In this document: one piece after another, positions 21,431 to 62,305 of the stretch
How the letters are laid out: every line of letters begins with the position of its first letter
Numbering within the stretch: position 1 is the first letter of the stretch
NCBI GenBank assembly: GCA_963931865.1
Contig: OZ007509.1
Coordinates: 12,637,671 to 12,701,670 of the forward strand
Direction: 5' to 3'
DNA length: 64,000 nucleotides
From: Axinella damicornis
Taxonomy: Eukaryota > Porifera > Demospongiae > Axinellida > Axinellidae
Notes under the pieces: generated by a model
What the model saw: only the letters and a program-made list of their open reading frames with translations
Database searches by the model: none
What the model was told of the DNA's origin: nothing
Position numbers and translations under genes: made by a program

Positions 21431-24400
21431 CTATGCGTTGTGTGGTTCACTCAGTTCAGTGATGATATCATTAGCAGAGGGTCTTGCATTCCTGTCCTCA
21501 GCTAGGCACCGTCGGATGAGTGCCATCGTGCTCGGGTGTCGGATGGAACGAATCAAACGTTGGCGATCAGCCACCTCAGGGAAGCGAGCTGTGTACATTT
21601 CCACCAGTAGTACTCCGAAGCTGAAGATGTCCATTTTTGGAGACTGGAGAGCAGCATTCCCAACCTCAGGAGCTGCGTAGGTGGGATTACCAGGGGCAGC
21701 GGTCCTCAGCCTCTGAAGTAAGTTGACAGAGCCGTAGTCAGAGACTTTGGCCCTCCAGCTGTTGTTGGGCCCAGGATCCAGTAGAACATTGGCACTGCTA
21801 ACGTCTCGGTGTATTATAGGTGTTGGGTGCATCAGGTGGAGGTAGTTGAGGGCTCGGGCCACATCCAGGGCGATGGAGTTGATCTGATTCGGTGAAAACA
21901 CACGCTCATTCTCCAGCTCTCTTCGTACAGTGGTTGGCATCAGTTCAGTGAGGATGATCAGCTCTCCCCGAAGGGTGGCTCCGATAAACTGGAGGAGGTT
22001 GGGGTGGCGAACTCGGGCTGCCATGTTCATTTCACGGATGAACAGAAGGCGGTTGTAGTTGGAGGCTATCTGTCCATAGAGGCACTTTGCTGCCACGTTG
22101 GTTTCACGAAATCTTGCAACTCTGACAACAGCCCAGCCTCCTCTCCCCAGCTCTTCCTCTGAGAGGTTGATCTCATCCCTCCGTACTACCCACAAGGGAT
22201 CCATTTCCTCCAGCCCAGCTTCTTCAGCTCTCCTTTCTGCATCCTCCACTCTCCTTTCTGCATCCTCCGCTCTCCTTTCTGCATCCTCCACTCCCCTTTC
22301 TGTATCCTCTGCTCTCCTTTCTGCTTCCTCTGCTCTGAGTTCTGCTGCTTGTACCCTTTGCTGGAGATCTGCAGCTTGGGTGTTGGCTTCATCCAGAGAC
22401 TGCTGAAGATTTCGAAGACGCTCTTCCGCCTCTCGTACACCATGCTCGGCAGTAGTGGCCCTTTCCTGAAGGGCTCTTTTATCTGCTTGTGATCGTTGCA
22501 GGGCTACCTCAAGGGTCCTATTCTGCTGCTGTGCAGTGTCACGCTGTACTTGGAGGTTCTGTGATCGTCGCTGGACTTGCTGAACTTCTGATTGGAGATC
22601 TCGGTTCCTCCTTTCAACCTCCTGGATCCTCCGCTCTAGGGCTTGCTCTCGTGCAAGTGATCCTCGATGAGTATATCCTATTGTCGTGTGCACTCTAGAG
22701 GTAGCTCCTCTCTCTTGCATACCCTTTCCAACCTTCTCTGGGAATTCTCGCTGCTTCATTTTTACTCTACTGGGCGACTCCACCTGTACCATTAAGGCTG
22801 AGGGAGAAGGAGTGGATAAGTTAGAAGCAAGTGTTGTTTTACCAACCTACACTTTATCCAGCATTGATATCAAACTTTAGTGCAAAGCAGCAGATGACAA
22901 TGCAGTAGGGACAAGCCACCTGGCAACTGAATGCTGTTACAACAGTCAGCTCAAAAGTGGGAAGCTACAGTAGCAGTAAACTGGGACAGACAAGTGAGTT
23001 GTACAGACGTCACAGGGAGTGATGACTGCAGTGACAAGGTACAATGGCATGCTCCAGCATTTCAAGCTGGTCACTAGATACTGCTACATGCAGGAGTTGT
23101 AGATGGATAGCAGAATACCCAGCGGTGCTCAAATATGTACGATTGTTTCAGGGAGCCTGAGGGTGTGATCCCGGCAGTGTGACATTAGCACAACAGAATG
23201 AAGTAAGGAGGTTGGAAGGTGCCAATTAATGGTCGGTAATCACTATCAGTTCACTACAGACTGCCAGGTTAAGGTTTGACACCAGCATGCTCCTGCATGT
23301 TTCATGTGAACATGCTCAGTACAGATATTTCTACATGATCTGTAGATGACTATATAGAAGTATATAACACCGTAATATCTGAACTGACTGTGCAGAATTC
23401 CAGCTATTCAGTATATCCCCCAATACAGCATGCATCATTATCTGTTGAATAAATCAGGTCATACCGTGTTCAGCTTTCTTCTGTTTCATTTTATCAAGTG
23501 CCACTGCTCTCTGTGGCGTCCCCAGCTGGCTGCTGTCAGCCACACCCACCAGGACCCACTGTCTAGAGGAGGGAGTGTCTCCAGACTGAACTGACTCTGG
23601 GGGAGGAGAGACGGTACACAAGTATCAACTTAATTCCTTAGAAACACTTGGACACTCATGCCAGGTAAGCCAGTGGCTGGATAGTACAGTCATAGTGATG
23701 TAATGTAAATAAAGTGTAGATGTTACCCATTGGGCAATTATCACCATCTTCCGCCTATGGTTAATCAGTCCCAATGTTGCTAAGGGCAAGAGGATGGGCT
23801 ATAGATATGCACTGTCATGTTCACCAATACTGGGTAGTGAGTCTATTGGCACTGACACATTCTGTGTACACAGGATGTGAAATGGTAGCCTATAGCTAGT
23901 CCCTTGACTCACCCAGCATGAGAAGAAGGGGAGTGGGTGGAGTTTGGGAGTTTGGGTGCTCCATTGTATTCCATGAGCATTGGCATAGGTAATCGTACAA
24001 CCTTCAGGCAGCTATGACTGCTAAGCGGAAGTCATGCACTACACCCATAGACTTTGTTGTATACACAAATTTAAGCGAGAGGTGGTTTCATTCTTTGTGC
24101 CATCCAATCTGCCATACTGCAAGCAATCAAAGCTAGACATGAGAATATGCAGCCTCCATTGTTACAATGTGTACTGACTGTGCATCAGGGGCTGACTGAT
24201 TCAGTTGTTGCATCACCTCATTAGCCTCATTCCCTGACCATTCTCATGTCCAACTTTGATTGTTTGTATAGTATGGCAAACTGGACAGCACAAAGAATGA
24301 AAGTACCTCTCCCTTACTGACATGCATGTCACTAGCTATGCCACACATACCAGGAGACGGGACACTATTAGACAATGAGTCCAAGTGTATGTCAATTAGC

Positions 24401-27400
24401 GACCTGTTCATTTCACATTAAGGTAGTAAACATGGGTACCGTGATCTCCGAAACCAAGTTGATGGATAAATGGGCAGCATCAAAGCGTACACAAGTTTCA
24501 GCAATACTTTGCATCAAACTGCTCCCTCTGCTTGAAAATGCCCTAAAACTCAATTTTAAGGCCCTCTACTGAACTGAAAATTTGGACCCTCTCCAAGGCC
24601 CCACCCACACTCTGACCCCATCATCAATACACACACAAAACAGGCCAAAAAAACTACGCATGGATTTACCACCTGCTCTCCTCACTTGCAGGCTACAGCC
24701 TAAAACTCACTGCCGCCCTCAAAAACAGAGGTTTGGCTAACCAAGGCTTTCAAAAAAAATTCCACGCACACCAACTAAAACCGACTAAAGCCAAGGCCAC
24801 TTTTCAAAAGGTCAACCTACCACCTGCAAAACCAGGGATGCTTTTCCACGTTCACCTCTCGGTTACAGAGTTTTAGCCACACATCTACTCCCTCTCACCA
24901 GCCCAGTCCAGCTACCAAACCAGCCAAATTCGCCCTAACATGAAAATGGGCGGGGCCTGTAATGCCGAAAGGTCAACTCTCTAGAGTACCTTGACCAGGG
25001 AGCTGTCGGAGGCTGTTCACTTTCCAGGCTGTTCTTCGGCCACTTCAGCAGCCCAACAAACATTCTGCTCACTCGACCTAGCTATTCACACTCAGATAGC
25101 CTATCGCTACATTCAATAAACTAGAATAGCTCCTTACGTGTTGTAACAAATCTTGCACGGCCACATCAGAGTACTGATTTGAAACTTGAAAAAGGGCCGC
25201 TAGCCGCATCGCCATGGGAAAACGTAAACAGATTAATAACTCTATAACCATATGCAAGTGACGTCATCCCATTAATTATTCAATGTAGTATGGTATGTGT
25301 TCTGCTCACCAAACTCCAGCACAGTTGTATCGGCCAGCTTGGGGTCATCGTCATATGATGTGTTGGGGTCAAAACTTGGACAACCTCCAAATGTTGTGGC
25401 ATGTACCTGGCCTTGGTTCATCTCAAAGGCAGTGAGGGTGTGCCCATTCCGTGCCTGTGAAGCTTCAGGAAGAGTGAGCTGTGGAGAGGGAAGACACCTG
25501 ACTGGTGGATGCTGGTTCAAGATACACAGTGAGCATACTATTGTACAATTGTGCAGATCCAGAACCTGATCTGAGATGTAGAACACATACATGTGAATTT
25601 ATTTCCAACGGTAGTAAGACCCTACCACTGCCAACCAGTGCGGACAAATCCTACAGCCATCAAATTCATACAACATTACTCAATCAGAGATATGTACCGT
25701 ATCAGTACATTGTGCAATTGGCTGATTCAATCGTAGTGTCATATGGTCCACTAGAACATTCAGTAAGGAAACTTTATCCGACAATGAAATGTGTGCCTCA
25801 CTATATACCTCCTCCTTACCATATTTCCTCTAATTCGGTCACTGTTCATAGGATGTTAATTTTAATGGTCATCTGTCCAGATGATTAGAAATCCAACAAG
25901 CTAGCGCCAGTTTTGTGATTGAGGGTAGATGGCTCAATTAGACATGAACAGATAGCAAATAGCCACTGCTAGACCAGTCTGGATGGGCAGTGGTCGGCCG
26001 AGAGCGGTGACTACTAAAGCTCATTAATGGATATGGGTGGGTGTGCTAGAGAGCTTTGATGGTCATGACCATAACAAGACCTTAACAACAGGTGAAGTAC
26101 ATAGTGCAAACATTCAAGCCTGAGTGTCCCCATGGTATGGTAAGGGCCTATGTGGAACACTGACAGAATAACACTGCTCAGATCTGGGGTTAGTACAGAG
26201 TATAGATCTAGAGTGAATTCGTCTTGAGTATAGCCAGCTTTTACTTGAATTCAAGTCCCTCTCCACTCAGTGCTATCCACTGCTTCTTGTACACATGAAC
26301 CCCCTCACTGCTGATTGACAGCCCTCAGCCAGGATGCTAAAATATCTCTCATCAAAATTTTTGTTCTCTGGACTGAATTTCTGATTAGTTGTCCGGCAAA
26401 AATTCAGCGTGTAAAATAAACTTCCTGTCTGGTAATTAGGCTGTTAAACTACAGTACCATTATATCCCCACACCTGCTGAGGAAGGTGGTAGAACTGAAC
26501 TTTCCCCACTGGGTGCCAAAAATGGGGGAAGAAACCTGTACCTTCATTCCCAGGGCAGACATGGGAGGAGGATGTTATTGTGCCTCTCATTGTATAGGAA
26601 ATCTTATAGTCTATTGTACTGTATGTGTGACGTCAATTTCGACCTAAGTAGTGAGTGCAGGTGCCATCCAGAATATCAAGCTGTACTTTGTAATTGAAGT
26701 TGCAGATGCCTCTAGCCTATAGACCTGGATGACAAGCCGTAGGAACACTTCACGTTACGCACCTGTTCATTCCTCCAAAGGTTTGTGGTACAGGTGCTAT
26801 TCTTGCAGCCTATCACTCAGGTGTAGAGGTGGGAGGCTGGATTATCAGGACAGATAACTGCACATGATGGACATGAGTGACCCACATAGGGTTCCCTCTG
26901 TTTGCCATTTCCTTTTCCCTAGAGCACCAACTCTCAGCCAGCCTTTTGCTCACCTGTGAATATAGTTTCTGTGTAATTAGCCTACCTAACAGGATATAAA
27001 CCACAATCGTTTGGGTACGATATTGACTCAGTATTACAAAAGACCAGATGCCTGCCTGTGTAATGACATTTCTGTTCTGGTCAGTTGGTGCTACACTGCA
27101 CTGACCAGGTCAAATTAGTTTGAAACTGGTGTATGCAGTTGCACTCAGGCAGGCATCCCTTTGATGACCTTTCATGCAGGGTTTTCCCCACACGTGTTAC
27201 CATACTCCAAGCAATCAAAACCAGCAGTGGGAATGGCCTGGGAATGAAGTTGTTATAGTAAGGTATTGTGGTCATAGTTGGTCCCACACCTACACCTCCC
27301 TCACCTTCCTCCACCTCCCAGAGTCAACATCTAGTAGCCAGGCCTCATTCAATGTGTTGTCATTGTTATCGATCCCCCCAGACATGAATAGGACTGGCTG

Positions 27401-30400
27401 GTCTTCTCCATAGTTGAGGCAGCAGGCAGCATGGCTATATCTCCCCACTGGCCAAGGGGCTCCCTCTTCCCTCTCCAGTTTGGTCCATTCCTGGGAGTAG
27501 TGACAGTGAATAGCAGCATGTCAGAATACACATCAGGCAACACGTTAGTTTCATATGTGGCTCAAGAACAAGAAGAGTTATGTAGTGTAGTTTGTATGGT
27601 CTGTTAATCCATACACTGTTAAAATCCCTGTACTGGGAGAATATATGTTTGGTGTTCTGTTCCACCGTGGGATGTATTGGTGTAATGAACACTCTTGAGT
27701 GTTTTACAAACAGCCTATTGGTAGCTATAGGTGAGTGTGTATGGTAACTGAAACAATCCTTGACTATGTAACATTCTACCATTTTGGGATGAAACACTTT
27801 AACTGGCACACTTTCAAGCCAATTTCCGTGTGTGACTCATATCTGCTTAGAAAACATAACATGCTAACTGAAAACCTACTAAGTGGGTCAGTGTGAGTAC
27901 GTACATACATCGAACCCCACACCAACATCAATAGTTTAAGCCAATGTGAGTATGAAATATGGAAGGTGATCCCATACAGTTAGGCTTGTTACCATGTTCA
28001 GGGGGAAAATACAATCACACTGGGTTCTTAGCGGTACGTTTTGTAAGCTGAAGTGAGCTAGTAACACGGAAAGTGGTCCAAATTTCTGTCATTGGGTTTG
28101 TTTCCATATGTGGAATACCTGTGAAAACATCCTAACATTGCTGTTAAAGCAGGGGCAGATACGTCTGCACTCACACTAGGGAACAGTCCCTTATGATGAA
28201 AACACAAGTAATTCATAACCTATACCTGGTAGGTTTCTGCCTCAGTAACTTTGATGGTATGTTTTGTGGTGAGCCAAGATTGTTCACATACACCACTAGG
28301 TAATTGCTTGTTCAACACTTGATTAAGACTGTTTGTAATTCCCTTACATCAGCACATCCTACGTTGGTTGCACATACATCGTGCCAATAGACACATGTAT
28401 AACCATTGCATACTGGCACTTCAACCCATCTCTACCGATTCTAGTATTATCCGTGCCTAGCAGTGCGGTCCCCAAGTTTGAGGGTGAAAAGTTACGACAA
28501 AACCACATTCTCAACCCTTTGTTTAAGAAAGGCTTGGAAACCACAAGCATGAATAAATTTTCTTTCTTATAGTAAATCATTGCCATACTTGTAGCTGCCA
28601 ATAGCATTGTTTATGCATACATCATTAACTCCATGGCAACATATGATATTTCCTGGTGTAGATTTGTACTGTGATAATTACTGCAGTGCACACAATGACT
28701 TTGATAACTGCAGTATTCCACTGGCCATTGGAATGTATCCTATTTCTAGAGTTTGTATACTGTTACTACTTGTCTACACATTTTGCAAGTGCATATGCAC
28801 TCTAATAATATGTACCATAGTGTGTACCATTGCCTCAAAGTCGATGATGAAGATATCATCGACTGCTCCACGTCCTAGCTGGTACCCTCCAAAATACACG
28901 GCCTTGTGGTGGTTTACTGCTGTGAAAGTGAAGTTGGAGGAGGGGGGAGGTCTTGGTCCAGTTGTGGTGGGGGAGGACCACTTTCCTGCAGAAGGTGAAG
29001 CAGTACAGACAGTGCTCACTCTCATTTTCACAATTGGCTGCACTTAACTATACCCTGGATCCAAATGGCTTGGACTAGAAATATCAACCCATTGTAAACA
29101 TAGAGGCTCTGTACATGTAGGTAATGAACACATAGTTGCATGCAAACTCCTCATGAGCTAAACTCATGCACTACCTCAGCATAAGAAGGCATCAAAAGTT
29201 CCATTCCATTTTCAATGTATGTTCATGTCAACCATGCTACCATGGTTTCCCAATCCACATGCATTTCACTTGGGGATAACTGTGGGGAGGGGAGGGGCCG
29301 GAAGTCATGTGACTCCTTGTGCAGTAAGGTCACAACACTAGTACTTTTTCCACACTCACTACAACAATACTGGCAACTGATACCATCAAGGGCGCATCGA
29401 GCCGCTCGATGCGCTCTTGATACCATCATGTACCCAGTCACAGTGGGAGCCAGGAGGTCATGACCTCTCATGAATACTTCATAAGAACACAGGTATATAC
29501 CTTGCACACACTCAGGAATGGGGTATGATAATTAATGTCCTGAGGTGCAACCTTAAAATTTATGTACTCCATTGCATACATCCTTTTTGTGTTCCTTCCT
29601 GATCTTAACCAAGCAGGTGGACATAACCTGACCTAATTATGACACAGTCAAGCTGTACACATTCTCCCCACATAGTTACATGTTAAGTACAAGATGAACA
29701 TTAAGAGGTTAACTGTTGGATCTGTGTTCCCATGCTGTGCCATTCAGTACCAAGGAAACACACAGACCCACACTTGGATAAGAACATGCCCATGTGGATC
29801 AGAGACTGAATTTGTGTCTCCTAGAGTGCATGAGTGGAAAGAGCATGTGGCGAAACCATATGAATTTAATGGCAGGCAAACACACACGCTAAGGCGGTTT
29901 TAGAGCATGTATTTCCCTCAAGTTTCAACTCCGTAAGGTGGATTCTGGGACCAGTTGGATGGTTTGTGAGCTCTATAGTTTCTAAGTGGTATCACAGCAT
30001 TAGCTAGACAGTAGATGAGTATACTTTAAGCGAAAGAAGCCTACAACCTGCAAACTAACCTCGTGGACACCAACAAAACTTCAGGCCCTCATGCATTTAG
30101 AAGACAGTGTAATCCCTCCCAAGCCACTGTAAACTGTGTGGTTCCAATGTAACATGATCACCATTTGGCTATAACTTGGGTTGGGTTTTACTGGGTGATA
30201 AAAGTTTGCATTGCACATACATACATTATACATATCCAGTAAGTCAAGGGTTCAATTTCTTGGAGAGAGTACTGTTACACAGACAGCTGGAGCTAGAACA
30301 CTCATGCTGACAATTTGTGTGTTAGGAATTCACGGTCTTCTGCTGATGGCAAGTATAGAGAATAGAGTGTACCTACAGTATTGCGACTATTTTATACGTG

Positions 30401-32654
30401 ATTGACCGGATGAATGATAATGCTTTCATCAGGTTGACTAGTTTGGAAGCTGCCGAGTCAGGACTCCACTGAAACACTTTGAGCTATTGTTTCACTGTTG
30501 TACTGTGCTGTACTGACTACTGTAGCCAACACAATCAGTAAGGTCAAGAGTGCATAAATAGCAGGAGTCCCAGTTGTGTACTAAGCAACCTGGTTGCAGG
30601 TGTTGTTGGCATGGTTACCAGACTTTCTCTACTGCCTGTTTGTACTGCAGCCACTGCTACTATTGTGAATGGTGCTAGTCGGTTACACAACTCAGTGTCA
30701 GCAGTTCAATGGTTAATACACCTCAGAGCTGCATGTGAACAGTGTATGCTAGTAGAGCATAACCACACCCAAGGAGTGGAAGGGGATGTGGGAGGGGAGG
30801 GGCAGGTAGACCATGGGCCTTGCAAACTCACTCATACCATATAGCGCTTAGGTTTCGCGGGTCTAAATTTTGCGAATTACGCTTTCAACGAAAATTTTGA
30901 CACGTTAATTTGTGCGCCTACGTACGTACGTGGACAGTATTCCAACGTATGCGTGCGAAGACTAGCTTGATGGCTCTGTTTGTGTACCGTTCAACAGTGA
31001 GGATGGACAGTGGTCGAGGTGTAAGCTTCTGGGTCCACATGGAGAGGTACCTGCCACTGCTGAAGCTGCCAGCTCCATGAGCTTGATGTGGCGTTTTTAC
31101 CACAAATTCGTGAAATGTTTTCAACAAAATGTTCTCGATGAGCAATTCGTGAAAATTTAGACCCGCAAAATATTAGCGACATACGATAGTTTTCATCTGG
31201 CCACACCCACTCAATTAACCCTTTAACCACCGAATTTTTCCCACCAAGACAACACATTTTCATGCATCAGCGCACACCACTTTCGTAGGTACTCCTCTGC
31301 CACAGCATTCGCTCCTCAGCGGCCAAACTTGGTTGGGCCCGCACACATGGAGAGACCCCTCTGGCAATACCGTTAATGATATTCATGACCCCCACAAGCC
31401 CAGCAATCGGAGGTCAAAAGTGGATGTCAGCCGGATTTTCGCCCAGCATTTCCTTAAACTTGGGCCAGATCTGACTGATGGCACACCTTACACCACCAAC
31501 TTGCATGTTTTCTTGAGGCCCTGGGTGGGGTCTATGAATATCATTAAAATCAAAAATCCTCAGGTCAATGAATCTGATTAAAATCAAAAACGCCCACGAC
31601 ATGCGAAAGGGGGGTTGCTGCCCCACCTTTCGATATCCCCCTGCTTCTACGTTTAGTGGGGGATGTGTGCCGAAATCTGACCAAATTTTTGAGTTTGTCC
31701 TCAAAGTCGTCCTGAAGCCTTTTTGGTGTCTTTATGGACTGACGAGAAGCCCTACAAGTGCATAGGGTCTAAATGACGTCTATAGACGTCAATGGGGCTT
31801 AAAGGGTTAAGTAATTGTCAATCACATTCTACACCAGGCTGTTGTGCAATTCAGTGCCACCTCAGAACCTGTTGTTCTGTTGTATAGCTCTTCACTTTTT
31901 TTGTTGTGCATTAAAAATGGTTTCGCGTACTCTACTGCATTACTACTTATTACGGTAATCACTACTCAACTCAAAATTGGGTGATAACTATCTAAACTTG
32001 GCATAACATATGGACTGCTACCCATGCATTGGCTCACTCAAAAATTCTCTGTTCTAGAGCCGGCCCTGCACCCACACAAAGTATCACACTAGAAGTTGCA
32101 ACAAGTGAAATTTGCTTACCTTCTGTGACATCAAAAACATGGAACTCATCAGTCCAGCCTCTTCCATCTGTATAGCGAGTATCCTTGTGGAAGGATGATC
32201 CGGTCTGTATGGGCTGTGTGGGTACACCATATCCACCTATGGTGGCTAGGTGGTGTGTGCCGAAGAAAACCATGCCACACCCTTGCTTTGGCATGGGACT
32301 GTGTGCTGTGTTAGATACATGTACGTCTGTCCACATGAGGGTGTCGGTATCCAGAACATGAAGAGAGCTCTGATAACATTTTCCTTCATGTCCAGCAAAT
32401 GAATACAAGGAAGTTGAGTGTGCCACTGCTGCTCCGCTAGCCAGTCCATGGGATGGCACTCCTGTTGTACATTGTTCCTGCCAGGTCTCCAGGTAAGGAT
32501 CAAAGACATTCACAGTTGACTTCAGTTTGTCTTGCCCACCATGATGAAAGTCTTGCGTGAGTCCGCCCCACAAATACGACTTAGTCCCAACTTGGACTGC
32601 AAAGTGGCCGTATCTTGGGGATGGTTGATACCGGGAAGACAGAATGGAGGCCAT
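21431..32654 (-). CDS. Kelch – coiled coil – protein kinase fusion, copy B (complete)
   Basis: Six exons: 32654..32120, 28985..28828, 27490..27305, 25478..25310, 23596..23465 and 22797..21431. They sum to 2547 nt, an open frame of 848 residues plus stop. Residues 1–350 form six Kelch blades; a 44-residue linker exon follows; about 410–590 is a highly charged coiled coil; about 600–848 is a kinase domain. Visible kinase motifs: glycine loop GRGGWAVV, VAAK lysine, REM helix-C glutamate, HRDVSSANVLL, DYG in place of DFG, and YAAPEV. The pattern resembles tyrosine-kinase-like (TKL) kinases and is probably catalytically competent. No signal peptide or membrane segment is seen, so the protein is likely cytosolic: the propeller would sense or scaffold, the coiled coil oligomerise, and the kinase signal. 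That role is inferred. The start is the first ATG before the first Kelch strand. Confidence 0.88.
22229..22354 (-). repeat. Six 21-bp units encoding coiled-coil heptads
   Basis: Inside the last exon of copy B, a 21-bp unit (tctcctttctgcatcctccac and variants) is repeated about six times. Each unit encodes seven residues of the type EDAERRx, exactly one coiled-coil heptad, so unit gain or loss changes the rod length without breaking frame or register. The leftmost units are almost identical and the rightmost are degenerate, as expected for recent expansion from one end. Confidence 0.85.
24078..24310. mobile_element. Inverted-repeat MITE downstream of the last Kelch exon, copy B
   Basis: Arms of roughly 65 bp start agaggtggtttcattctttg and end caaagaatgaaagtacctct. 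The same element is present in C at 56633..56848, so it is ancestral to both. Confidence 0.7.
24417..25258 (+). mobile_element. TTAA-flanked repeat, copy in B (one end lost)
   Basis: Begins TTAAGGTAGTAAACATGGG and matches the complete 984-bp copy at 59479 in reverse orientation. The last 50 bp or so are missing. It was inserted between Kelch exon 4 and the linker exon of copy B, just downstream of exon 4. No open frame of note. Confidence 0.75.
30833..31187. mobile_element. MITE in the first Kelch intron of copy B
   Basis: Inverted ends of about 40 bp share tttcgcgggtctaaatttt on the left and aaaatttagacccgcaaaa on the right. Copy C enters the same element at the same intron position (63953 to the window end), while copy A has an empty site near 3710. 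Confidence 0.8.
31219..31806. mobile_element. piggyBac-type non-autonomous element in copy B
   Basis: A 588-bp insertion begins ccctttaac and ends ttaaaggg, with TTAA at both flanks (31215..31218 and 31807..31810), the canonical piggyBac end and target. It lies in the first intron of Kelch copy B and has no counterpart at the equivalent site in A. Confidence 0.85.
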
Positions 32655-36566: not shown

Positions 36567-36575
36567 CTTAGGACT

Positions 36576-48186: not shown

Positions 48187-48465
<279 letters not shown>

Positions 48466-49369
48466 TAAGTCAAAATTCATAATGAGATGAGTCTGTAGCT
48501 CAGTTGTCCAGGCTCTTGAGTGTGGGCCAGTGCAGCCAGTGCAGACAAGTAGTGCATGAAAATATTCCCTGGACACATGTATTATGCTTCCACCTTGTCC
48601 TGGGATGCCTGCCGGTTGTGCTTCTGTTGCTAGAGTTGCTAGTCCTGCAGCTTGGTGTTCGACTGTGGTCCAACACTAGACAGTGCTGACAGGCATCCTG
48701 AGTTTTCTGGAAGCACATCATCATATCCCTGAGCTAACATTGTCTGTGTCCTTGCAGTGGTGCTGGGAGGTCTGAAGGACCACATCCGGATGATCAGACG
48801 CTGCCGGAGACTCATCTTCATAGCCTGTGGCACCAGCTACCACAGTGCCATGGCTGTACATCATATCATTGATAGCGTTGTGTGGGTGATTATGATGGCA
48901 CATTTTGCAACTAGGAAGCAGCAACAGGATCACAGTACAGGTAGCCCTTGTGAGAAAAATTGGGGATGCCTGAGGTCAAAGTCCTGTATCTGCATTGACT
49001 CCCTTAATTTGACAGGCATGCACTCCAGATAAGACTATTTTTTGCCTAGGCTGCAAAAATGGTGCTCAGAATTTAACGTGCTGTCTTTCCTTCAATGCCT
49101 CTTTCATTTGGAATGCTTTGCTGGGCTCCATTTTATTTATGCATGTCGTTTTACGTTTTTCCATATCGCTGTACTGCGGGGATTTGATGTAAGCACCACC
49201 ATGTGACATCATTCTAGACACTAGGCTACATCTGTGTAGGCCTATGTCGACGACATTTCTCTGATTGTTTCTTGCATGTAGTAAGTGGAAGAGCGATACT
49301 AACTGAGCTGTCCTTGTTTTGTAGGTTGACTGTCCACGTCACTTGGCAAAGAGTGTGATGGTTGAGTGA

Positions 49370-50860: not shown

Positions 50861-53800
50861 TTAAGAATTAAGAGAGTGGCGATATTTCAGGATACTCGTA
50901 CAGTAAATTACAGTAAGACACATAAGTGTGCTACATACTCCCCTGTGTTTATGGCAACAACAAGCAGACAAACCTGTTCTCTGCGACCGATACTGCTGCT
51001 CCAGGTCATAGGCGACTCTGCTTTCCCCCACTGTACAGCTCCTCAGGGCATCACACAGCTTTGTGAGGGTAGGAAATGGGTGGGATGGTGGTGCTTGTTT
51101 CAACCATCTGCTCAGTGTCTCTTGAAGAAATGCTGCAGGGCCACTTGGAATGAGCAGGGGCATACTCTCAATTTCATTCAGTTCCCCCATTGTCAGTCTC
51201 AGCAGCAGACCAAGAAACTTCCAGTAACTGGTCACAGGTCGGAGGTGCTCCATGAGGAACGGCAGGTCATGGGGAGCTGGGAGAGAAAAAAATGTGGTAG
51301 TATAAGCTAAGGTCCTCTGATTGAAAAGTTTGCGTAAGGAATGGAAACTGCCATTCTGTGCAAGGTGTCTGAGTACCTCAATGACTATGTAACTGGTCTG
51401 TTCTAATGCCCTATACAGAAGATGTGAAATAGTACTTATGCAAGAATTACCTAATGTTTTAGTATCTTTATGTGCTGGCATCTGGAACACAGTTTCTGAT
51501 GAGAATTCGTTTGAAATAGCTCCTGATGAAAACAGAGATATACAGGGTGGTAAAAATATATATGGACATAATGAAAGGGATATGACCATTGAGTACTATA
51601 GGACTTGCACTGTGGGAGTATGACTAGACACTCTCCAGATCGATCTTGCTCAATCCACTTTCATTAATGAGTAGAAGTACTGAGGGTGTTGCTAACACTC
51701 ATTCCAAAGTTAAGTAACTTGAATTGTTGTTCATCTATGGTCATGTTGCTATAGCAGCATCTATGGTCATGTTGCTATAGCAGCAAGATAAACAGCACAA
51801 CAGAGTGGTTATATATCAAATGACCAACCTGTGGGTGAGAGTACAGTGCTTTTACTGCTAGGAGATGATACTCCAGGACTTGGAGGCAGTGTGCCTGCAG
51901 CTGGAAGATTAACAAGAAGAACTTCAGGAGGAGAATGATATGCTTAACTGCATTTCTTAAGAAAAGCTCTGAGAAAGTAGTATTATCCAGCTCTGACTGA
52001 CATGAAGTATAATGTAATTGTTCTAACAAGGATGCAGTAATACGGCTGTTGAATAGTAAAGTGCATGTCCACATATAATATTGCTCACCTGTATCTGGGA
52101 TGTAGAGGGTGAAGAATGAGCAACCCGTTGCTCCAATCAGGTTGATCTCGTGCTCAACGCACACATGAGGTTTGTCTGCATGTGGCCATCGAAGGAGCAG
52201 CTCACACTTTGGAATCATCCGACCACCACTGAAACGATCGACAGTTCCCTTCCTAATCTGTGGATAGAACAGTGAGCAGCATTAACTTCAACTTGTAGTA
52301 GCTCATGACAACGTACACAGCTATAATCATTTGACAACCTACTATAGGATCATAACGTGGTTTGATTGTCCAGCCACTCTCCAGGACATAACCACTCCTT
52401 GGGATAGACAGCCTAATCATCTTCTGCTCAAATCCAAGGCCCATTTCTATATCTTCCCTGACATGAAACTTTGTCGAATAAAACTCCTCCACAACCTGTA
52501 TTGGATGTAGAGAAATCATTTCATGCTTCATGCTTTGTATGTACAATGGACAGACTTACAGTGCGGTGAGGATCAAGGTTCTTGGTGATCACAAAGTGCA
52601 CTCTGCAGTCATTTACTCCTTTACAGGTGTACACCTGACCACAGCACTGGTCAAAGGTCACAGTTTCTTCTGATGGATTTGAGAGTTGGGGTAATTCGGA
52701 GTCAGTGGTTTGGGATGGAGTAGTGTAGGACCATTGAATCAGACGCCTAACAATGCCAAAACCAGAAAACTGGGTTAGCGACAAGCTACCGTACGAACTG
52801 TGGTGACTAAAGACACCTCCATCTCGCGTTTTAAACATGTAGGGTAGCTCTTTCTGGGTGCATTTGGTAGAAACGAAGGCGAGCTGCGAGCACTGCTGAT
52901 CACTGGAGAGTACAGCACAGTGCTGTATCTCAACAGTGAGGGGCTTTGTGAACTTGTGGGGACTGTACACCCAGTAGACTGCACTAATGAGCTCACAGTC
53001 AGGAGGCATCTGAAACTGACCAGACAGACTAACTCGTACAGTCAGCTTTGCTTCTGATACTTCAGCTGGTAGACTGCCTTCTGGGACATGAAGCTTGAAG
53101 CCGTAACCCTCAAACTGAAGGTTCTGCGATTCTTGTGAGAGAGTGAATGTTGTTTGTGCAACGATCTCTGCTCCACGGAATGGTACTGTAGAGAAAATAG
53201 TATGTTAGATCGAGCATAGTATGTTAGATCGACCCTCAAACTGAAGGTTCTGCGATTGATTCTTGGGAAAGAGTGAATGTTGCCAATATATTCATGTGAC
53301 ATTATAATATTATAACAAAACAACAGTCTTAGACCAGTACGTAACAACTTGGTAAAATGGGTCTAACTCAAGATCTCTCCTTTATATTCTAATTAGCGCT
53401 CCGACAGTCAATAAAAATAAGCTACACCCACAATTGTGAACACCAGCTTACCAATTGGAGAGGAGGCGGATGTAGGCATCATGTGCACCTGCTCCTTTCT
53501 GAGGAAGTCAATTTCAAGTTCTTTGTCCATCAGATCGTCCCTCAGTTGGTCAACCTCCCCGCTGTAAGTGTCTTGAAAGAATTCCACTTCTCTGTATCTA
53601 GCCTCAAGTGACTCCATCTGGGTAGTCAGTTCCTGCTTCTCAATTTCCAGTGTTTCAATTCTGTCTTGGTTGCTATGGGAGTCATTGATGATGGCAGCAA
53701 TTTCATTCTCTTTCTCTGCTACCTTTTGCTGAAGATTTCTGAGCTCTATTTGGAGTGAGTCCACTTGGCTTTGCAGTGCTTTGTTCTCCTCAGCTCTGTG

Positions 53801-56800
53801 TCTTTTAATGGTAGCAATTTCATCGTCTTTTTCTTGTCCATCACAACGGAGAAATGTTACTTCTAAGTTCTTGCTCTCCAGTTCAAGCTGCAGTTTAGCT
53901 GCAAGTTCCGAGTTCCTCTTCCCTAGCTCCAACCTCTCTTCTAGTTTCCATCAGCTGTTGAGCAATTGCTGCTTCTTCCTGAGCAAAGACCGGACCATCG
54001 CCGCTGATTTTCTGCACTTCACCTACTTCAACTGCTGTGATCTGGCTAGCGGTAACATATGAAGCACCTGTTGAACTATCCACTTGATCTGGTTTGGTCA
54101 GGTCTTCTGACAGAGCTGGAACTTGGGTTGCTTTCTCTTGGGTTTGTGTAACAGCCGACACTTGTTGACTTTGAAGAGCTCTGATGTGTTCATCCTTCCT
54201 GTATAGCTGCCGCTCTAACTCTCCTTTCTCCTGGTCTTTGGCTCGAATTTGTGCCCCCAAAGCCAATCTTACTTGCTCCTTCTCTCGTAGTTGATGCTCC
54301 AAAGCTGATTTCATTTGATGAAACTGCTGTTGAATGGATACCTTTGCTTGCTCCACAAGTTCAATTTGATGCTCTAAAGTCGCTTTCATCTGGTAATATG
54401 TTTGCTGTAAAGCTGTAATCGTTTGGTCTCTCACCTGGATTTGATGTTCCAAAGCTGCCCTCGTTTGATCAAACTGCTGTTGTGCAGCTACCCTTGCTTC
54501 ATCGTTCATGCGAATTTGTTCTTCCAGATTTTCTTTTGACTGGGAAAGCTGCTGTTCTAGAATTGGGACTTGGTCAGCTTCCTGTTCAGCTCTCACGGCT
54601 CTAGCCAGGGCGAGTCTGGCTTGCCTCTGTGCTGTTGCAAACTTCTCTTCCATTTGGAGTACTTCTTGCAGCTTCTGGGTATTTCGCTCTCTCTCTGAAG
54701 TGTATAATGGCAAAGAACCTGTTATAGACGAATGCTTCTGAGCTCAAATTGACACAATTTACTTGTATGTGTGTTGTTAAAATGCTTGTATACATGTTTA
54801 CATGTACTCTACACTACATACATTCAATTGTGGATTCTGAACTGGATGTCCAGTTGTGCACAATAATCCAGAAAACCTTCCCTGCTATGGTATTGTGGCT
54901 ATTCTACCTCACTGTGGTAAATGCAAAGTGTAGATAATACAGTTAAATTCTCCGGCAGCAACTACGTACGCACATAGTTGCCTTGAATTCTGAACACTGG
55001 GTGACATTTTGAAGGATGAGACTCACATAAATATTAGTCCAAGAAACTAAGCTCAGGATAAGAAGTGTTATCAAAGATGGCTGAACAGGATATGCTAGGT
55101 CAGAAGAAAGAAACTAGCTCTACAAATGCCCAATTCATCACAACCGGATGACACAATGGAAGGTTGTTTGAATTGCTGGTAGCTTTAGAGTTTATAGTGG
55201 TGTGGCATAAAAATGATAATCTTACATGTAGGTGGTTACAACTGGCATGCTACTCCTCGGTAATACTGTGGACAACCCAACGTAGTAGTGATCCCAATAT
55301 AAGTCTCACATGGCCAGTGTACAAGCAACTGCACATTATGTATTGCAACATGAGTAGTCACTCAATTCTGATGTTAGCATCTTTCTGAAGATCTACATTT
55401 GCAGCTGAAGTGTGTGAATGAAGTAAGGCTGCATGCTGGATCACATGTGCGTACATGCATATAATAACCAGTGCTCAGAAATAGTGCACACCACTTGCAC
55501 GTCACTCAGGATAGCAATGCTACTATGGATACACAAGATGTGAAAGAATTGACACAAAACCAGCACAAACAATGTAGCACAGTATATCTGAACGTGGACG
55601 TACGCTTAATTCTTTCAGGGAGCCTGAGGGTGTGATCCTGGCAGTGTGACATTAGCACAACAGAATGAAGTAAGGAGGTTGGAAGGTGCCAATTAATGGT
55701 TGCTAGTCACAATCAGTTCACTAGCTACAGATACAGACATTAATGTTTGACACCAGCATGCTCCTGCATGTTTCATGTAAACGTGCTCAGTACAGATATT
55801 GCCACATGATCTGTAGATGACCATATAGAAGAACATAACACAGTGGCGGCGGAAGCAGTATGAGATTGGGGGGCTGAGGCAGGGACACAATTGCACGCTG
55901 CCAAAGGCAGCACATAGAGGCACGTAGTGCTGAGTAACCCCCCTAGCCCCCCCCCCCCCCTGTTCCACCGCCCTTGAGTCATAACACCTGAGTGTTCAGT
56001 ATTCACCCAATTCAGCATGCATCATCATCTGTTGAATAAATCAGGTCATACCATGTTCAGCTTTCTTCTGTTTCAGTTTCTCCAGTTCCCTTGTCCTCTC
56101 TGGCGTCCCCAGCTGGCTGCTGTCAGCCACACCCACCAGGACCCACTGACTAGAGGAGGGAGTGTCTCCAGATTGAACTGACTCTGGGGGAGGAGAGAAT
56201 GTACACAAACACCCACTTCCTTAGAAACACTTGGACACTCATGGCAAGTAAGCTAGTGGACTGGATAGCACAGTCATAGTGATGTAATGTAAATAAAGTG
56301 TTAGATGTTACCCATTGGGCAACTATCACCCTCTTCCTCCTATGGTTAATGAGCCCCAAAGAAAACCTGTTGCTATGGCCAAGAGGATGGGCTATGGGTA
56401 TGTGCTGTCATGTTCACCAATTAAATTGAACAGTAGAACTACTGGGTAGTGAGTCTCTTGGCACTGACACATTTCACATGCTGTGTAGTAGTCCACCCAG
56501 CATGACAAGAAGGGGAGTGGCCAAGGGTGGAGTTTGGGAGTTTGGGTGCTACATTTTATTCCATGAGCATTGGCACATTGGTTAATCGTACAAACTTCTA
56601 GCAGCTATGACTACTACGAGGAAGTCCTGCAGAGAGGTGGTTTCATTCTTTGTGCCATCCAATCTGCCATACAGCAAACAATCAAAGCTGGACATGAGAA
56701 AATGCAACCTCCATTGTTACAATGTGTACTGACTGTGCATCAGGGACTGACTGATTCAGTTGTTGCATCACCTCATTAGCATCATTCCCAGACTATTCTC

Positions 56801-59800
56801 ATGTCCAATGCTGGACAACTGGACAGCACAAAGAATAAAAGCACCTCTGGACACACAATTAGACAATGGACCCAAGTGTATGTCAATTAGGGACCTGTTC
56901 AATTCCAATTCAATGAACATGCAACCTGTATTGTGGTATGCGTTCTGCTCACCAAACTCCAGCACAGCTGTATCAGCCAGCTTGGGCTGATCAGCCAGCT
57001 TGGGCTGATCATCATCCGATCCTCCACGGACAAAACGTGAGCATCCCCCAAATGTTGTGGTGTGAATCCGGCCTTGGTCCATCTCGAAGGCAGTGAGGGT
57101 GTGCCCCCACCGTGGCTGTGTACCTTCAGGAAGAGTGAGCTGTGGAGAGGGAAGACAACTGACTGGTGGATGCAGGTTCAAGATACACAGTGAGCATACT
57201 ATTGTACAATTGTGCAGATCCAGAACCTGATCTGAAATGTAGAACACATACATGTGAATTCATTTCCAATTGTGGTAAGACCCTACCACTGCCAACCAGT
57301 GTGGAGAAATCCTACAGCCATCATATTCATACAATGTTATTCAATCAGAGATATGTACCGTATCAGTACATTGTAACTACCTTGGCTGAATACAACCATA
57401 GTGTCATTTGGGATACCATGGTCCACTAGAACATTCAGTCAGTATATTAAGGAAACCTTATCCGACAATGAAATGTGTGCCTCACTATATACCTCCTCCC
57501 TCCGGTCACTGTTCAGGATAATTGGAAGTAGGATGTTGATTTTTATGGTCACCTGTCCGGATGATTAGAAACCCAATAAGCAAGCTAGTTTTGTGATTGA
57601 GGGTAGATGGCTCAACTAGACATGAACAGATAGCAAATAGCCACTGCTAGACCAGTCTGGATGGGCAGTGGCCGGCCGAGAGCAGTGACTACTAAAGCTC
57701 GTTGATGGGTAGGTGTGATATATATAGAGAGCTTTGATGGTCATGACCATAACAAGACCTTAAAATCAGGCAAAGTACATAGTGCAAACATTTAAGCCTG
57801 AGTGTCCCCATGGTATGGTAAGGGCCTATGTGGAACACTGACAGAGTAACACTGCTTAGATCTGGGGTTAGTACAGAGTATATATCTAGAGTGAATTCGT
57901 CTTGAGTATAGCCAGCTTTTACTTGAATTCAAGTCCCTCTCCACTCAGTGCTATCCACTGCTTCTTGTACACATCAACCTCCTCACTGCTGATTGACAGC
58001 CCTCAGCCAGGATGCAAAAAACATCTCTCATCAAAAAAATTTTTAGTTTCTGGACTGAATTTCTGATTAGTTGTCCGGCAAAAATTCAGCGTGTAAAATA
58101 AACTTCCTGTCTGGTAATTAGGTTGTAAACTACAGTCCCTTATATCCCCACACTGGCTGAGGAAGGTGGTAGAACTGAACTTTCCCCACTCGGTGGCAAA
58201 AATGGGGGAAGAAACCAGCACCCTCATTCCCAGGCCAGACATGGGAGGAGGATGTTATTGTGCCTCTCATTGTAGGAAATCTTATAGTCTATTGTACTGC
58301 ATGTGTGACGTCAATTTCCACCTAGGTAGTGAGTGCAGGTGCCATCCAGAATATCAAGCTGTACTTTGTAATTCAAGTTGTAGATGCCTCTAGCATAGTC
58401 AATAGCCCTGGATGACAAGCCATAGGAAACACTTCACATTACCCACCTGTTCATTCCTCCACAGGTTCATGGTACAGGTGCTATTCTTGCAGCTAATACC
58501 TCAGGGGTAGAAGTGGGAGGCTGGAATATCAGGACGGATAACTACATTCTTGTAGTAGCTACCTACACAGGTAGGCATTGATGTCATGCACAGACGGACC
58601 TGAGTGACCGACTTAGGGTTCACTCTGGTTGCCGTTCTCTATTTCCCTACAGCACCAACTCTCAGCCAGCCATTTGCTCACCTATGAATATAGTTTGTAA
58701 TTAGCTTATAATCAGGACATAACCCACAATCGTTTGGGAAGATATCGGCAAGGCACTATAAAAGCCTGGATGCCTGCCCGTGTAATTACATTTCTGTTCT
58801 GGTCAGTTGGTGCTACACTGCACTGACGAGGCCAAAGTAGTTTGAAAGTGGTGCGTGCAGTTGCACTTAGGCAGGCATCCCTTTGATGAACTTTCATGCA
58901 GGGTTTTCAGTGTTACCATGCTCCAAGCAATCAAAACTAGCAGTGAGAATGGCCTGGGAATGATGCTGTGTGGTCCCATACAAACCTATAGCTACACCCC
59001 TCACCTCCTTCCACCTCCCAGAGTTGATGTCTAGGAGCCAGGCATCTTTGAGAGTGTTGTCATTGTTATCCATCCCACCAGTCATGAGTAGTATCGGCTG
59101 GTCATCCCCATAGTTGAGGCAGCAGGCAGCATGGCGACTTCTCCCCACTGGCCAACGGGCTCCCTCTTCCCTCTCCAGTTTGGTCCATTGCTGGGAGAAG
59201 TGAATTATCGGTTTGAGATATTGAATTTTGACGCAGAATTAGAAAGGACGCATAATTAGAGCGCCTACGGTAGTAGCATGTCAGAATACACACAAACAAC
59301 ACTCACAGTGTACAGTAGTACAATGGGAAAACCCACTAGCAGTACAATACCACATCAGCTACTCTTTGCCACCTACACACTACAGTAAAGCATTGACATG
59401 GAGTTTTCATATGTGGCTCAAGAACAAGAAGAGTTATGTAGTGTAGTTTGTATGGTCTGTTAGTCCATACACTGTTAAGGTAGGAAGCATGACATCGGCG
59501 AAATCGTGCAATTTTGCTCATGAATAATTAATGAGATGACGTCACTTGCATACGGTTATATAGAGTTGTTGATCTGTTTACGTTTTCCCATGGCGGCAAC
59601 CGGAATAAACAAGGGGGGCTTCTCTCTTTGATGCGGCTAGTGGCCCTTTCAAGTTTCAAATCGGTACTCTGATGTGGCCGTGCGGTACTTTGAAGATTTG
59701 TTTGAACACTCTTTTTTTTCTTCTTTTTTTCTTTTTTTTTAAGTAAGGAGCTATTCTAGCTTATTGAATGTAGCAATGGGCTATCTGAGTGTGAATAGGT

Positions 59801-62305
59801 AGGTGGAGTGAGCAGGAATATTTGTGGGTCTGCTGAAGTGGCCGAAGAACAGCCTGGAAAGTGAACAGCCTCCGACAGCTCCCTGGCCAAGGTACTCTAG
59901 AGAGTTGACCTTTCGGCATTACAGGCCCCGCCCATTTTCGTGTCAGGGCGAATTTGGCTGGTTTGGTAGCTGGACTGGGCTGGTGAGAGGGAGTAGATGT
60001 GTGGCCAAAACTCTGTAACCGAGAGGTGAACGTGGAAAAGCATCCCTAGTTTTGCAGGGGGTAGGTTGACCTTTTGGAAACTGGCCTTGGCTTTGGTCTG
60101 TTTTAGTTGGTGTGCGTGGAATTTTTTTGAAAGCCTAGGGTAGCCAAACCTCTGTTTTTGAGGGCGGCAGTGAGTTTTGGGCTGTAGCCTGCAACTGAGG
60201 AGAGCAGGTGGTAAATCCATCCGTTGTTTTTTGGCCTGTTTTGTGTGTGTATTGATGATGGGGTCAGAGTGTGGGTGGGGCCTTGGAGAGGGTTCAAATT
60301 TTCAGTTTAGTAGAGGGCCTTAAAATTGAGTTTTAGGGCATTTTCAAGCAGAGGGAGCAGTTTGATGCAAATTAAAGTATTGCTGAAACTTGTGTACGCT
60401 TTGATGCTGCCCATTTATCCATCAACTTGGTTTCGGAGATCGCTCTACCCATGTTTCCTACCTTAAACTATTGATGTTGGTGTGGGGTTCGATGTATGTA
60501 CGTACCATACACACTCACCTATAGTTACCAATAGGCAGTTTGTACAACACTCAAGAGTGTTCATTACACCAACACATCCCACAGTGGAACAGAACACCAA
60601 ACATATATTCTCCCAGTACACCCTATTTTAAGGTAGGAAACATGGGTAGAGCGATCTCCGAAACCAAGTTGATGGATAAATGGGCAGCATCAAAGGAAAG
60701 GCTGCAGTCGCTACGCATTCTTCCGTATACTATCGGCAGTCAAGCGGTCAACGGCTGAAATACAGCGCAGTCAAGGGGTGGTCACTCCAATATGCGCAAT
60801 ACTTAGAGCTGCGACCGGGGTCACAATGCGGTCACTGGGTCACTGAGGCTTTTTCTGTGCGGTCACAGGGTCACGAAGGTTTTTCCAAGCGGTTACAGCC
60901 TAAATTTTAACATTTTAGAAATCACTGCAAACAGAAGAACGTACACCAGTTAGCTAGCTGGTGTTTCAGTTATGCAGCAGCGATGGCAGGAGGTATATGT
61001 CCTGCGCTCTGAGCCGTGTACTTCGCGCTAGGTAGTCAAATATAATACTGTCGTCGACGTCATGTCACATGCACAACAGGCATGCACGTGCACGGCACGC
61101 ACTTTACACGTGATCTTTCGAGGGTGTAGCTACATGCTTTACTAACTAACCGTTAAGATTAAGGTAGGAAACATGGGTACCGCGATCTCCGAAACCAAGT
61201 TGATGGATAAATTGGCAGCATCAAAGCGTACACAAGTTTCAGCAATACTTTGCATCAAACTGCTCCTTCTGCTTGAAAATGCCCTAAAACTCAATTTTAA
61301 GGCCCTCTACGAAACTGAAAATTTGGACCCTCTCCAAGGCCCCACCCACACTCTGACCCCATCATCAATACACACACAAAACAGGCCCAAAAACTACGGA
61401 TGGATTTACCACCTGCTCTCCTCACTTGCAGGCTACAGCCCAAAACTCACTGCCGCCCTCAAAAACAGAGGTTTGGCTACCCTAGGCTTTCAAAAAAATT
61501 CCACGCACACCAACTAAAACAGACCAAAGCCAAGGCCAGTTTCCAAAAGGTCAACCTACCCCCTGCAAAACTAGGGATGCTTTTCCACGTTCACCTCTCG
61601 GTGACAGAGTTTTGGCCACACATCTACTCCCTCTCACCAGCCCAGTCCAGCTACCAAACCAGCCAAATTAGGACTGTTTGTAATTCCCTTACATCAGCAC
61701 ATCCTACGTTGGGTGTACATACATCGTGCCAATAGACACATGTGTAACCATTGCGTACTGGCACTTCAACCCATCTCTACAGATTCTAGTATTATCATTA
61801 ATGCCTAGCAGTGCGGTCCCCAAGTTTGAGGGTGAAAAACCACATTCTCAACCCTTTGTTTAAGAAAGTCTTAGAAACCACATGCATGAATTTAGTTTTC
61901 TTGCTTATAGTAAAACCATTGCCATACTTGTAGCTGCCAATGGCATTGTTTATGCATACATCATTAGGCAACATATTGATATTTCCTGGAGTAGATTTGT
62001 ATTATGATAATTACTGCAGTGCACACAATGACTCGGATAACTCTGCAGTATTCCACTGGCCATTGGAATGTGTCCTATTTCTAGAGTTTGTATACTGTTA
62101 CTACTGTCTACACATTTTGCAAGTGCATGCACTCTAATCATATGTACCATTTTATCAAAATCAATGATGTAGACATCATTGACTCTTCCACGTCCTGGCT
62201 GGTCCCCTCCGAAATACACAGCCTTGTGGTGGTTTACTGCTGTGAATGTGAAGCCGGAGGAGGGGGGAGGTCTTGGTCCAGTTGTGGTGGGGGAGGACCA
62301 CTTGC
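50861..62305 (-). CDS. Kelch – coiled coil – ZU5-like – Death domain gene, copy C (5' exon off window)
   Basis: Exons seen: 62305..62148, 59190..59005, 57139..56953 (Kelch blades 4–6), 56183..56052 (linker), 54694..53452 (coiled coil), 53185..52560, 52495..52343, 52257..52089, 51900..51829 and 51276..50861. The exon at 53185 has the ZU5 signature (GYGFKLHVPEGSLP, then PPDCELISAVYW), and the next two look like its continuation. The last exon reads as a Death domain: HDLPFLMEHL, YWKFLGLLL, RWLKQAPP, PTLTKLCDAL. ZU5–Death modules occur in UNC5, PIDD and ankyrin-type proteins and signal through homotypic Death contacts. Exon 1, holding Kelch blades 1–3, should lie beyond 64000. The coiled-coil exon contains one net +1 (or −2) frame change near 53925–53960, so this copy may be defective or the assembly may carry an indel. 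All other junction phases agree. Confidence 0.85.
51732..51784 (+). repeat. Tandem duplication of 25–27 bp in an intron of copy C
   Basis: catctatggtcatgttgctatagcagc-type unit appears twice in succession with no difference, just beyond the exon at 51829. Confidence 0.85.
53103..53283 (-). repeat. Partial duplication of the ZU5 exon into the adjacent intron
   Basis: The exon stretch gaccctcaaactgaaggttc (near 53107) through gagtgaatgttg recurs at 53230..53283 with a 4-bp insertion. It is accompanied by a tandem tatgttagatcg pair. The second copy lies upstream of the exon acceptor and is not part of the predicted transcript. Confidence 0.8.
56633..56848. mobile_element. Inverted-repeat MITE downstream of the last Kelch exon, copy C
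   Basis: Counterpart of 24078..24310, with the same agaggtgg and cacctct ends and a partly shortened right arm. Confidence 0.7.
56972..57007 (-). repeat. In-frame 18-bp tandem duplication in the last Kelch exon of copy C
   Basis: The unit atcagccagcttgggctg occurs twice in direct succession and adds six residues (QPKLAD read twice). The exon is 187 nt in copy C against 169 nt in A and B, a difference of exactly 18. The insertion sits in the loop after the TTFGG strand, where propellers tolerate length change. Confidence 0.9.
59479..60462 (-). mobile_element. TTAA-flanked repeat, complete copy in unit C
   Basis: 984 bp with short imperfect TIRs (ggtaggaagcatg at the left, catgtttcctacc at the right) and TTAA on both sides (59475..59478 and 60463..60466). 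The TTAA target recalls piggyBac, but the ends lack the usual CCC start, so the superfamily is uncertain. A T-rich tract lies at about 59709–59742. Confidence 0.75.
60467..60627 (-). repeat. Inverted piece of the Kelch intron in copy C
   Basis: This segment is the reverse complement of intron sequence at about 965–1110 in A and 27610–27930 in B (for example gttccaccgtgggatg appears as catcccacagtggaac). It lies between oppositely oriented copies of the TTAA-flanked repeat. Confidence 0.85.
60632..60695 (+). mobile_element. TTAA-flanked repeat, 5' fragment in unit C
   Basis: Starts right after TTAA with ggtaggaaacatgggta and matches the first 64 bp of the element, then breaks off within the phrase gggcagcatcaaag. 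About 460 bp of unrelated sequence with repeated gcggtcac phrases follows. Confidence 0.65.
61163..61672 (+). mobile_element. TTAA-flanked repeat, 3'-truncated copy in unit C
   Basis: Starts after TTAA (61159..61162) with ggtaggaaacatgggta and ends inside the element (accagccaaatta), after which sequence of the parent duplication resumes. Opposite orientation to the complete copy at 59479. Confidence 0.7.

Follow-up and report, generated by a model that had tools for sequence, protein, structure and literature searches.

Results

Three tandem Kelch genes at the locus

The DNA analysed, hereafter the window, is a stretch of 64,000 nucleotides of the Axinella damicornis genome (226 Mb in 120 contigs) at C5:12637671-12701670. 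Three tandem copies of a Kelch gene, A (left), B and C, were located on its minus strand, and gene B (window 32654-21431, minus strand) adjoins its paralogue C on the same strand. Gene B was resolved into six minus-strand exons. Exon 1 (32120..32654) carries the start codon and Kelch blades 1-3 and ends in phase 1, and is followed by Kelch exons 2 (28828..28985), 3 (27305..27490) and 4 (25310..25478), the last of which again ends in phase 1. Exon 5 (23465..23596) is a linker with both borders in phase 1, and exon 6 (21431..22797) encodes a coiled coil and a protein kinase and terminates with the stop codon. When joined at their GT-AG borders the six exons gave a single open reading frame of 848 residues plus stop, with the N-terminus MASIL.

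The joined B head scored 167 bits on the KLHDC2-type Kelch model PF24681, exon 1 alone 64.5 bits; a score so far above that of single exons speaks for the splice model. KLHDC2 was also matched in the PDB (2.4e-25), and the head is consistent with the six Kelch repeats of the KLHDC2 type, the number of blades being read from the sequence. The kinase exon matched Pfam Pkinase at 6e-34, and the lysine, HRD and DYG motifs were all seen by eye to be kept. The B chain begins directly with Kelch blade 1 and a Pfam scan detected no BTB in it, so that it does not have the BTB-BACK layout of KLHL proteins. No Death family was matched in the kinase exon at E up to 1 and the chain ends with the kinase, a layout other than the kinase plus Death of RIPK and IRAK. 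The joined B head, the B kinase exon, the C tail exons and the coiled-coil exons gave no Pfam match to NACHT or NB-ARC, and because no NOD domain was found the family was not filed with the NLRs.

The tail of gene C extends from about 50.9 kb and its head runs beyond the end of the window. Its minus-strand Kelch exons are exon 1 (window-equivalent 65165-64643, outside the window), exon 2 (62148..62305), exon 3 (59005..59190) and exon 4 (56953..57139), which ends in phase 1, and these are followed by the linker, exon 5 (56052..56183), with both borders in phase 1. The coiled-coil exon, in the same orientation, has a phase-1 acceptor and is read in two parts (53934..54718 and 53452..53887), which require either a 46-nt intron before the second part or a frameshift near 53.93 kb. 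Downstream on this strand lie a ZU5 exon containing a QFS motif (52560..53185), two exons at the position of a UPA domain (52343-52495 and 52089-52257) and a Death-like exon in an open frame (50864..51289, with provisional edges at about 51276 and 50974). Ten exons were joined with the frame kept through ZU5, while the joins from ZU5 to the Death exon are only partly resolved.

The ZU5 and Death domains that the sequence-only reading had assigned to C were recovered to different degrees. ZU5 passed the Pfam cut-off (25.5 against 21 bits) and is further assigned by ZU5 alignment, but Death remained below it (17.8 against 22.6 bits). An AF2 model of the Death exon (pLDDT 60.5) retrieved the death domains of Fas/FADD and RIPK1 as top Foldseek matches (best E 0.04). 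The AF2 model of ZU5 was poor (pLDDT 44.3), and its Foldseek matches to the ZU5 domains of ZO-1 (rank 1) and UNC5b (rank 2; best E 0.02) are therefore only supportive; a sequence search of the PDB with C ZU5 alone or with a profile found no match. The two exons at the UPA position had no Pfam match to UPA at E up to 10, and their position and alignment to Halichondria panicea proteins fit UPA.

Gene A has minus-strand Kelch exons at 4040..4561 (exon 1), 2406..2563 (exon 2), 549..734 (exon 3) and 156..324 (exon 4), the ends of the last two counted by hand from the sequence. Its Death-only tail lies to the left of the window (L013 7059-7412), where the Death domain passes the Pfam cut-off with 25.7 bits.

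The spacer between B and C contains helicase open reading frames (DEAD, Helicase_C; plus strand) beside a DUF6589 frame on the minus strand (window 36695-42071), probably a mobile element. Plus-strand exons at 45787-49032 resemble glutamine-fructose-6-phosphate transaminase, with a SIS domain below cut-off (0.00064) and the rest judged by eye, and likely belong to an unrelated gene. Direct repeats of 95-99% identity at 19135-20200 and 44103-44821 lie outside the Kelch genes.

A common head and linker joined to different tails

Between B 33861/C 66387 and B 23142/C 55609 the DNA of the two genes aligned in colinear blocks that are about 80-99% identical, and the similarity ends before both tails. 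Together with the joined exons, this alignment confirmed that the two neighbours are paralogues with a common Kelch head and linker and different signalling ends, as had been proposed from the sequence; the proposal holds for both copies with the provisos that the first Kelch exon of C is outside the window and that its coiled coil needs the 46-nt intron or a frameshift. In each of the copies A, B and C a phase-1 end of the linker faces a phase-1 start of the tail exon, so that the phase-1 junctions first noted in B and C extend to the third copy. These junctions support the view that either effector fits the same linker in frame, and actual exchange of tails is also supported (below). The likely exchange zone in the B intron spans 22854..23142: it is bounded at 23142 by the end of homology to C and at 22854 by the point from which the kinase cassette of another copy, K, is homologous.

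A genome-wide family of Kelch heads and tails

All counts from genome searches are lower bounds. Kelch exon 1 of B had at least 77 matches at E up to 0.001, and the B linker exon at least 52. Close heads were represented by 25 rows at 69% identity or more, corresponding to at least 24 copies, as copy T is split in two pieces. The idea of a simple duplicated gene pair was rejected on this number of close heads; the paired arrangement described by the sequence-only reading is real, yet it forms part of a genome-wide family. An array spanning C5:12.596-13.139 Mb contains at least 17 of the close heads, each encoded on the minus strand. Among the 24 close copies exon 1 is interrupted in two, by a stop in M and by a frameshift in T, and is open in the other 22.

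Tails were assigned by hand as the nearest downstream tail on the same strand before the next head, with ZU5, kinase and the A Death as queries. Among the 24 close heads the nearest tail was ZU5 in 19, kinase in two (B and K) and Death alone in two (A and O), and for the head at C5:11015220 no same-strand downstream tail was found. A tail on the same strand thus lies behind 23 of 24 close heads, a hand count that includes the doubtful copy D, and this confirmed an association beyond chance. The distance from head to tail was 7.1-12.9 kb in 16 of the 17 array copies; it was 33.7 kb in D, where the pairing is doubtful. In a second family, whose heads are 42-50% identical to that of B, a kinase 75-84% identical to the B kinase lies behind 20 of 22 heads. 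ZU5 was found behind five of seven heads in a cluster at C5:11.5-11.75 Mb and behind three of seven in a cluster on C6. Besides kinase tails and Death-only tails, ZU5 tails of at least three types were distinguished.

In copy G (C5:12823970-12851893), which has a single head and a single linker on the same strand, two tails of ZU5 plus Death follow that differ in type. In copy Q (C5:17249409-17267701) a single head precedes two ZU5 exons, which again differ in type and lie 2.3 kb apart. Two tails behind one head are a possible intermediate or a possible choice for alternative splicing. A double ZU5 occurs in PIDD or ankyrin, and the two exons of Q may represent such a domain pair. A partial copy at C5:12794759-12797029 consists of a linker with broken Death pieces and lacks a close first Kelch exon. 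The C ZU5 query had at least 135 genome matches, some of them split exons, and these include more than 100 ZU5-like exons, many away from Kelch heads; other types of head may share the ZU5 tail.

The Kelch head is DIVERSIFYING; the tails are not

Selection was scanned with a custom FUBAR-like grid on tandem paralogues, a setting in which gene conversion among heads could inflate the signal. In Kelch exon 1 of 23 close copies omega was 0.7, with 18 columns at P above 0.85, and the heads of 12 type-Z genes had 11 sites at P above 0.9. No site at this level was seen in ZU5 of these 12 genes (omega 0.4) or in eight kinases (omega 0.2), and 10 ZU5 exons of type z1 had no selected site (omega 0.4). 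Kelch exon 1 is, in these scans, a variable repeat sensor under diversifying selection, the feature by which NLR/STAND proteins were compared. The 'polymorphic sensor' proposed from the sequence alone was in this way borne out for differences among paralogues, the head being under diversifying selection and the tails not.

Sites that are selected, or nearly so, fall repeatedly in the same loop registers, one just after the blade arginine or lysine (B 15-16, 124) and a second just after GG/AG (B 32, 89). In the KLHDC2 alignment, where residues were numbered by a fixed offset of 21 consistent with six pocket residues, the register after R/K corresponds to the pocket residues Lys147, Ser269 and Trp270, and that after GG to Tyr163 and Arg236. 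All five are named as pocket residues in the available part of PMC11377542.

Heads and tails have conflicting histories

The kinase domains of B and K are 96% identical (dS 0.06) and their Kelch exons 1 are 80% identical (dS 0.26). In a tree of Kelch DNA (26 rows), forcing B and K together cost 55.8 log units (p-AU 0.00095), and sisterhood of the two heads was rejected. The common cassette of B and K starts at position 22854 in B, 57 nt ahead of the kinase exon, and is 94.9% identical over 1541 columns; the linker just upstream is only 73.5% identical. The B kinase differs from the kinases of the second family by dS 0.56-0.64 (six comparisons) and the heads by dS 1.31-1.51 (three comparisons), with values of 0.59 and 1.31, respectively, for the C4 member. 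The suggestion that the first 36 residues of the B kinase exon are a decayed linker of the second family was not supported (shuffle p 0.008 in one of seven comparisons, 0.07-0.53 in the others).

The ZU5 tails of the close heads fall into three types, two of which group in the tree with tails of distant Kelch families. The tails of E and T group with C6 genes (100/100), those of N, S, R, Q2 and D with genes at 11.5-11.75 Mb (100/99), and F lies outside the latter group (97/88); a long-branch warning applies to these groupings with distant-family tails. On C1, a type-Z ZU5 (78%) follows a distant head. In all six cross-family pairs tried, the C1 pairs included, head dS ranged from 1.21 to saturated and ZU5 dS from 0.33 to 0.57. 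The reverse pattern was obtained in all three pairs tried among close heads (E-C, N-C and F-G), in which head dS was 0.12-0.15 and ZU5 dS 1.55-2.29, and in E-N, with dS 0.17 for the head and 1.83 for ZU5. Control pairs with like tails gave head and tail dS of 0.01 and 0.00 (H-M), 0.05 and 0.16 (G-I) and 0.05 and 0.22 (S-R), and a C4-C7 control of kinase genes gave 0.45 and 0.42, the head and kinase being taken from different C7 loci.

Over 18 close ZU5 genes the divergence of heads and tails was uncorrelated (r -0.01, p 0.44), and like-tailed genes had no closer heads (divergence 0.147 with like and 0.140 with unlike tails, p 0.60). When effector classes were placed on the Kelch tree, class Z required seven changes (76 of 500 shuffles were as low, their mean being 8.9) and class z five (205 of 500 shuffles, mean 5.5); class K (kinase) needs two changes and class D (Death-only) forms one clade. 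Within type Z, head and tail divergence co-vary (r 0.56, p 0.002), so exchange is occasional: this co-variation, set beside the overall lack of correlation, suggests that tails are swapped from time to time and in the remaining cases are duplicated together with their heads. Exchange of tails between heads is, from these predicted genes, strongly supported.

A predicted self-cleavage motif in ZU5

The F-S pair of the PIDD/CARD8 cleavage motif was invariant in 18 of 18 aligned ZU5 exons, 17 of which match the ZU5 family at E 0.01 or better. The residue before it depends on the type: z1 has HFS, z2 has QFS and type Z has mostly QFS, Q replacing H in all but one of the eight type-Z rows of the alignment. 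In the accessible part of PMC3210808, PIDD is described as cleaved at HF/S and CARD8 at SF/S, UNC5b as having Leu in place of Phe, and an H to Q change in Nup98 as affecting cleavage only slightly. Self-cleavage of ZU5 at F-S in Kelch-ZU5-Death proteins is on this basis a prediction.

Relatives in Halichondria panicea

Proteins were searched for relatives that share five-residue words. The joined B head had one strong match, P0121, a Kelch plus kinase protein of Halichondria panicea whose head is 42% identical to the B head (1e-84), and three weak ones. The ZU5 part of C had three matches, all from Halichondria panicea: P0126 and P0127, in which Kelch, coiled coil, ZU5 match and Death stand in one predicted chain, and P0125, with the ZU5 match and Death but without Kelch. 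Both architectures sought in sponge proteins, Kelch-kinase and Kelch-coiled coil-ZU5-Death, are accordingly present among the predicted proteins of this species. Named protein records of this kind are often supported by RNA. The tails of P0126 and P0127 match C at 1e-44, but their heads had no significant BLASTP match to the C head (best E 0.06), which indicates the same tail on other heads in Halichondria panicea. P0125 also has a stretch, DVEANPGP, after a hydrophobic N-terminus, which we take to be a 2A-like motif; no paper on such a motif in sponges was found.

Discussion

A probable modular family with exchanged tails

The comparisons showed the predicted genes of this family to consist of a KLHDC2-type head, a short linker exon and one of several tails, the identity of the tail being uncoupled from the ancestry of the head. 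We consider it probable that they form a birth-and-death family of modular sensors, with diversified Kelch heads and exchanged tails, that is used in the recognition of microbes or non-self. The tails would have been exchanged by recombination or gene conversion within the long intron after the linker, and the length of this intron and the phase-1 borders in A, B and C would make exchange easy and each swap neutral to the frame. The loop face of the propeller may bind varied ligands and the coiled coil may cluster the protein. Clustering could then activate the kinase by trans-phosphorylation, or free the Death domain and let it assemble, possibly once ZU5 has cleaved itself at the F-S bond as in PIDD and CARD8. 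Such proteins would serve to recognize microbes or non-self sponge cells; an immune or allorecognition function is what we infer.

A further idea, which we hold only tentatively and consider unlikely, is a combinatorial repertoire in which heads and tails are separate interchangeable segments, one head is spliced to alternative outputs, and loss or conversion of tails fixes combinations, making an NLR-free system that perhaps acts in allorecognition. Copies G and Q, where one head faces two tails, are the reason to think that a single head could be spliced to alternative outputs.

Other explanations were weighed against the exchange of tails. Concerted evolution, in which gene conversion homogenizes the tails while the heads diverge under selection and no new combinations arise, would account for tails being more alike than heads in every cross-family pair tried and for the linked evolution of heads and tails within type Z. 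It is partly refuted by recently diverged heads that carry ZU5 tails differing by dS 1.55-2.29, or a kinase, and conversion of like by like cannot generate Z, z1, z2, kinase and Death-only tails, which are different modules; we regard it as doubtful, although gene conversion may be how a tail is copied into a new gene. That heads and tails are separate genes merely alternating in the array might be argued from the 1.5-4 kb introns that separate Kelch exons from tails and from Pfam, by which no single annotated gene is seen. This appears highly improbable, as linker and tail are compatible in phase 1 in A, B and C, the tails have no evident start codon of their own, and in 16 of the 17 array copies, all but D, the tail is on the strand of the head and at a similar distance from it (7.1-12.9 kb). 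Moreover, Halichondria panicea has Kelch-kinase and Kelch-ZU5-Death predicted proteins in one chain, and in the second family linker and kinase share one open frame, both in the linker-search matches and in six of six loci read.

Decay into an array of pseudogenes is suggested by the stop in M and the frameshift in T in exon 1, by the possible frameshift in C and by the orphan linker with broken Death pieces, but is scarcely credible for a family with exon 1 open in 22 of 24 copies, the whole of B open and purifying selection on kinase (omega 0.2) and ZU5 (0.4). A genuine Kelch family with exchanged tails might also have an ordinary cellular role, for example in protein quality control or development, and the closest solved head, KLHDC2, is the substrate receptor of a ubiquitin ligase. 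We give this reading some credence while judging it the weaker one in view of the tandem expansion, of the Death or kinase outputs and of diversifying selection that is confined to the head and falls in its loop registers. Features of this kind are usual for recognition systems. An analogue is provided by the fungal families in the part of PMC4986451 that was available.

Comparison with known systems

In working logic the nearest known systems appear to be the fungal HNWD/NLR families. As far as the available part of PMC4986451 goes, these likewise consist of paralogues with hypervariable repeats (theirs are WD propellers), diversifying selection, which acts at fixed repeat positions, and varied joined effectors. 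They differ in having a central NACHT or NB-ARC and N-terminal effectors, whereas the Kelch family has no such domain in the parts scanned and its effectors are C-terminal. PIDD, UNC5 and CARD8/NLRP1, as presented in the accessible part of PMC3210808, share ZU5 followed by a Death-like domain, and the F-S pair is the invariant one seen in our 18 exons. However, their heads are LRR, netrin-receptor or NLR parts and not a Kelch propeller; PIDD has H before F-S where type Z has mostly Q, and in the Kelch family UPA is unseen by Pfam and cleavage only predicted. Expansions of TRADD-N/Death genes in marine animals, a sponge included, are lineage specific and combine variable propellers with Death-superfamily domains, but in the available part of PMC8195603 they have TRADD-N, the propellers named are WD40, and neither Kelch nor a swap with a kinase tail is mentioned.

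Of single proteins, KLHDC2 is the best PDB match of the head and the most variable head sites fall in its pocket loop registers, but it has no kinase or Death tail. The Halichondria panicea proteins are alike in combining a B-like head with a kinase (P0121) or Kelch and coiled coil with a ZU5-like domain and Death (P0126, P0127); they differ in the heads of P0126 and P0127, which do not significantly match that of C, and in P0125, with its ZU5 tail but no Kelch head. 'Kelch motif containing' genes, which may or may not belong to the present family, are listed in the accessible part of PMC6208332 as differentially expressed in two sponges after microbial stimuli. No description of a paired Kelch-kinase and Kelch-ZU5-Death system was found in the open-licence literature, which does not show that none exists.

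Recognition of microbes and of foreign sponge tissue is highly specific in sponges and, to our knowledge, the receptors for this recognition are largely unsettled. A tandem family with a diversifying head and swappable kinase or ZU5-Death outputs is a concrete candidate for such receptors. If this is true, a variable propeller sensor set apart from swappable outputs, as in the fungal NLRs, would have arisen in an early animal without a NOD domain.
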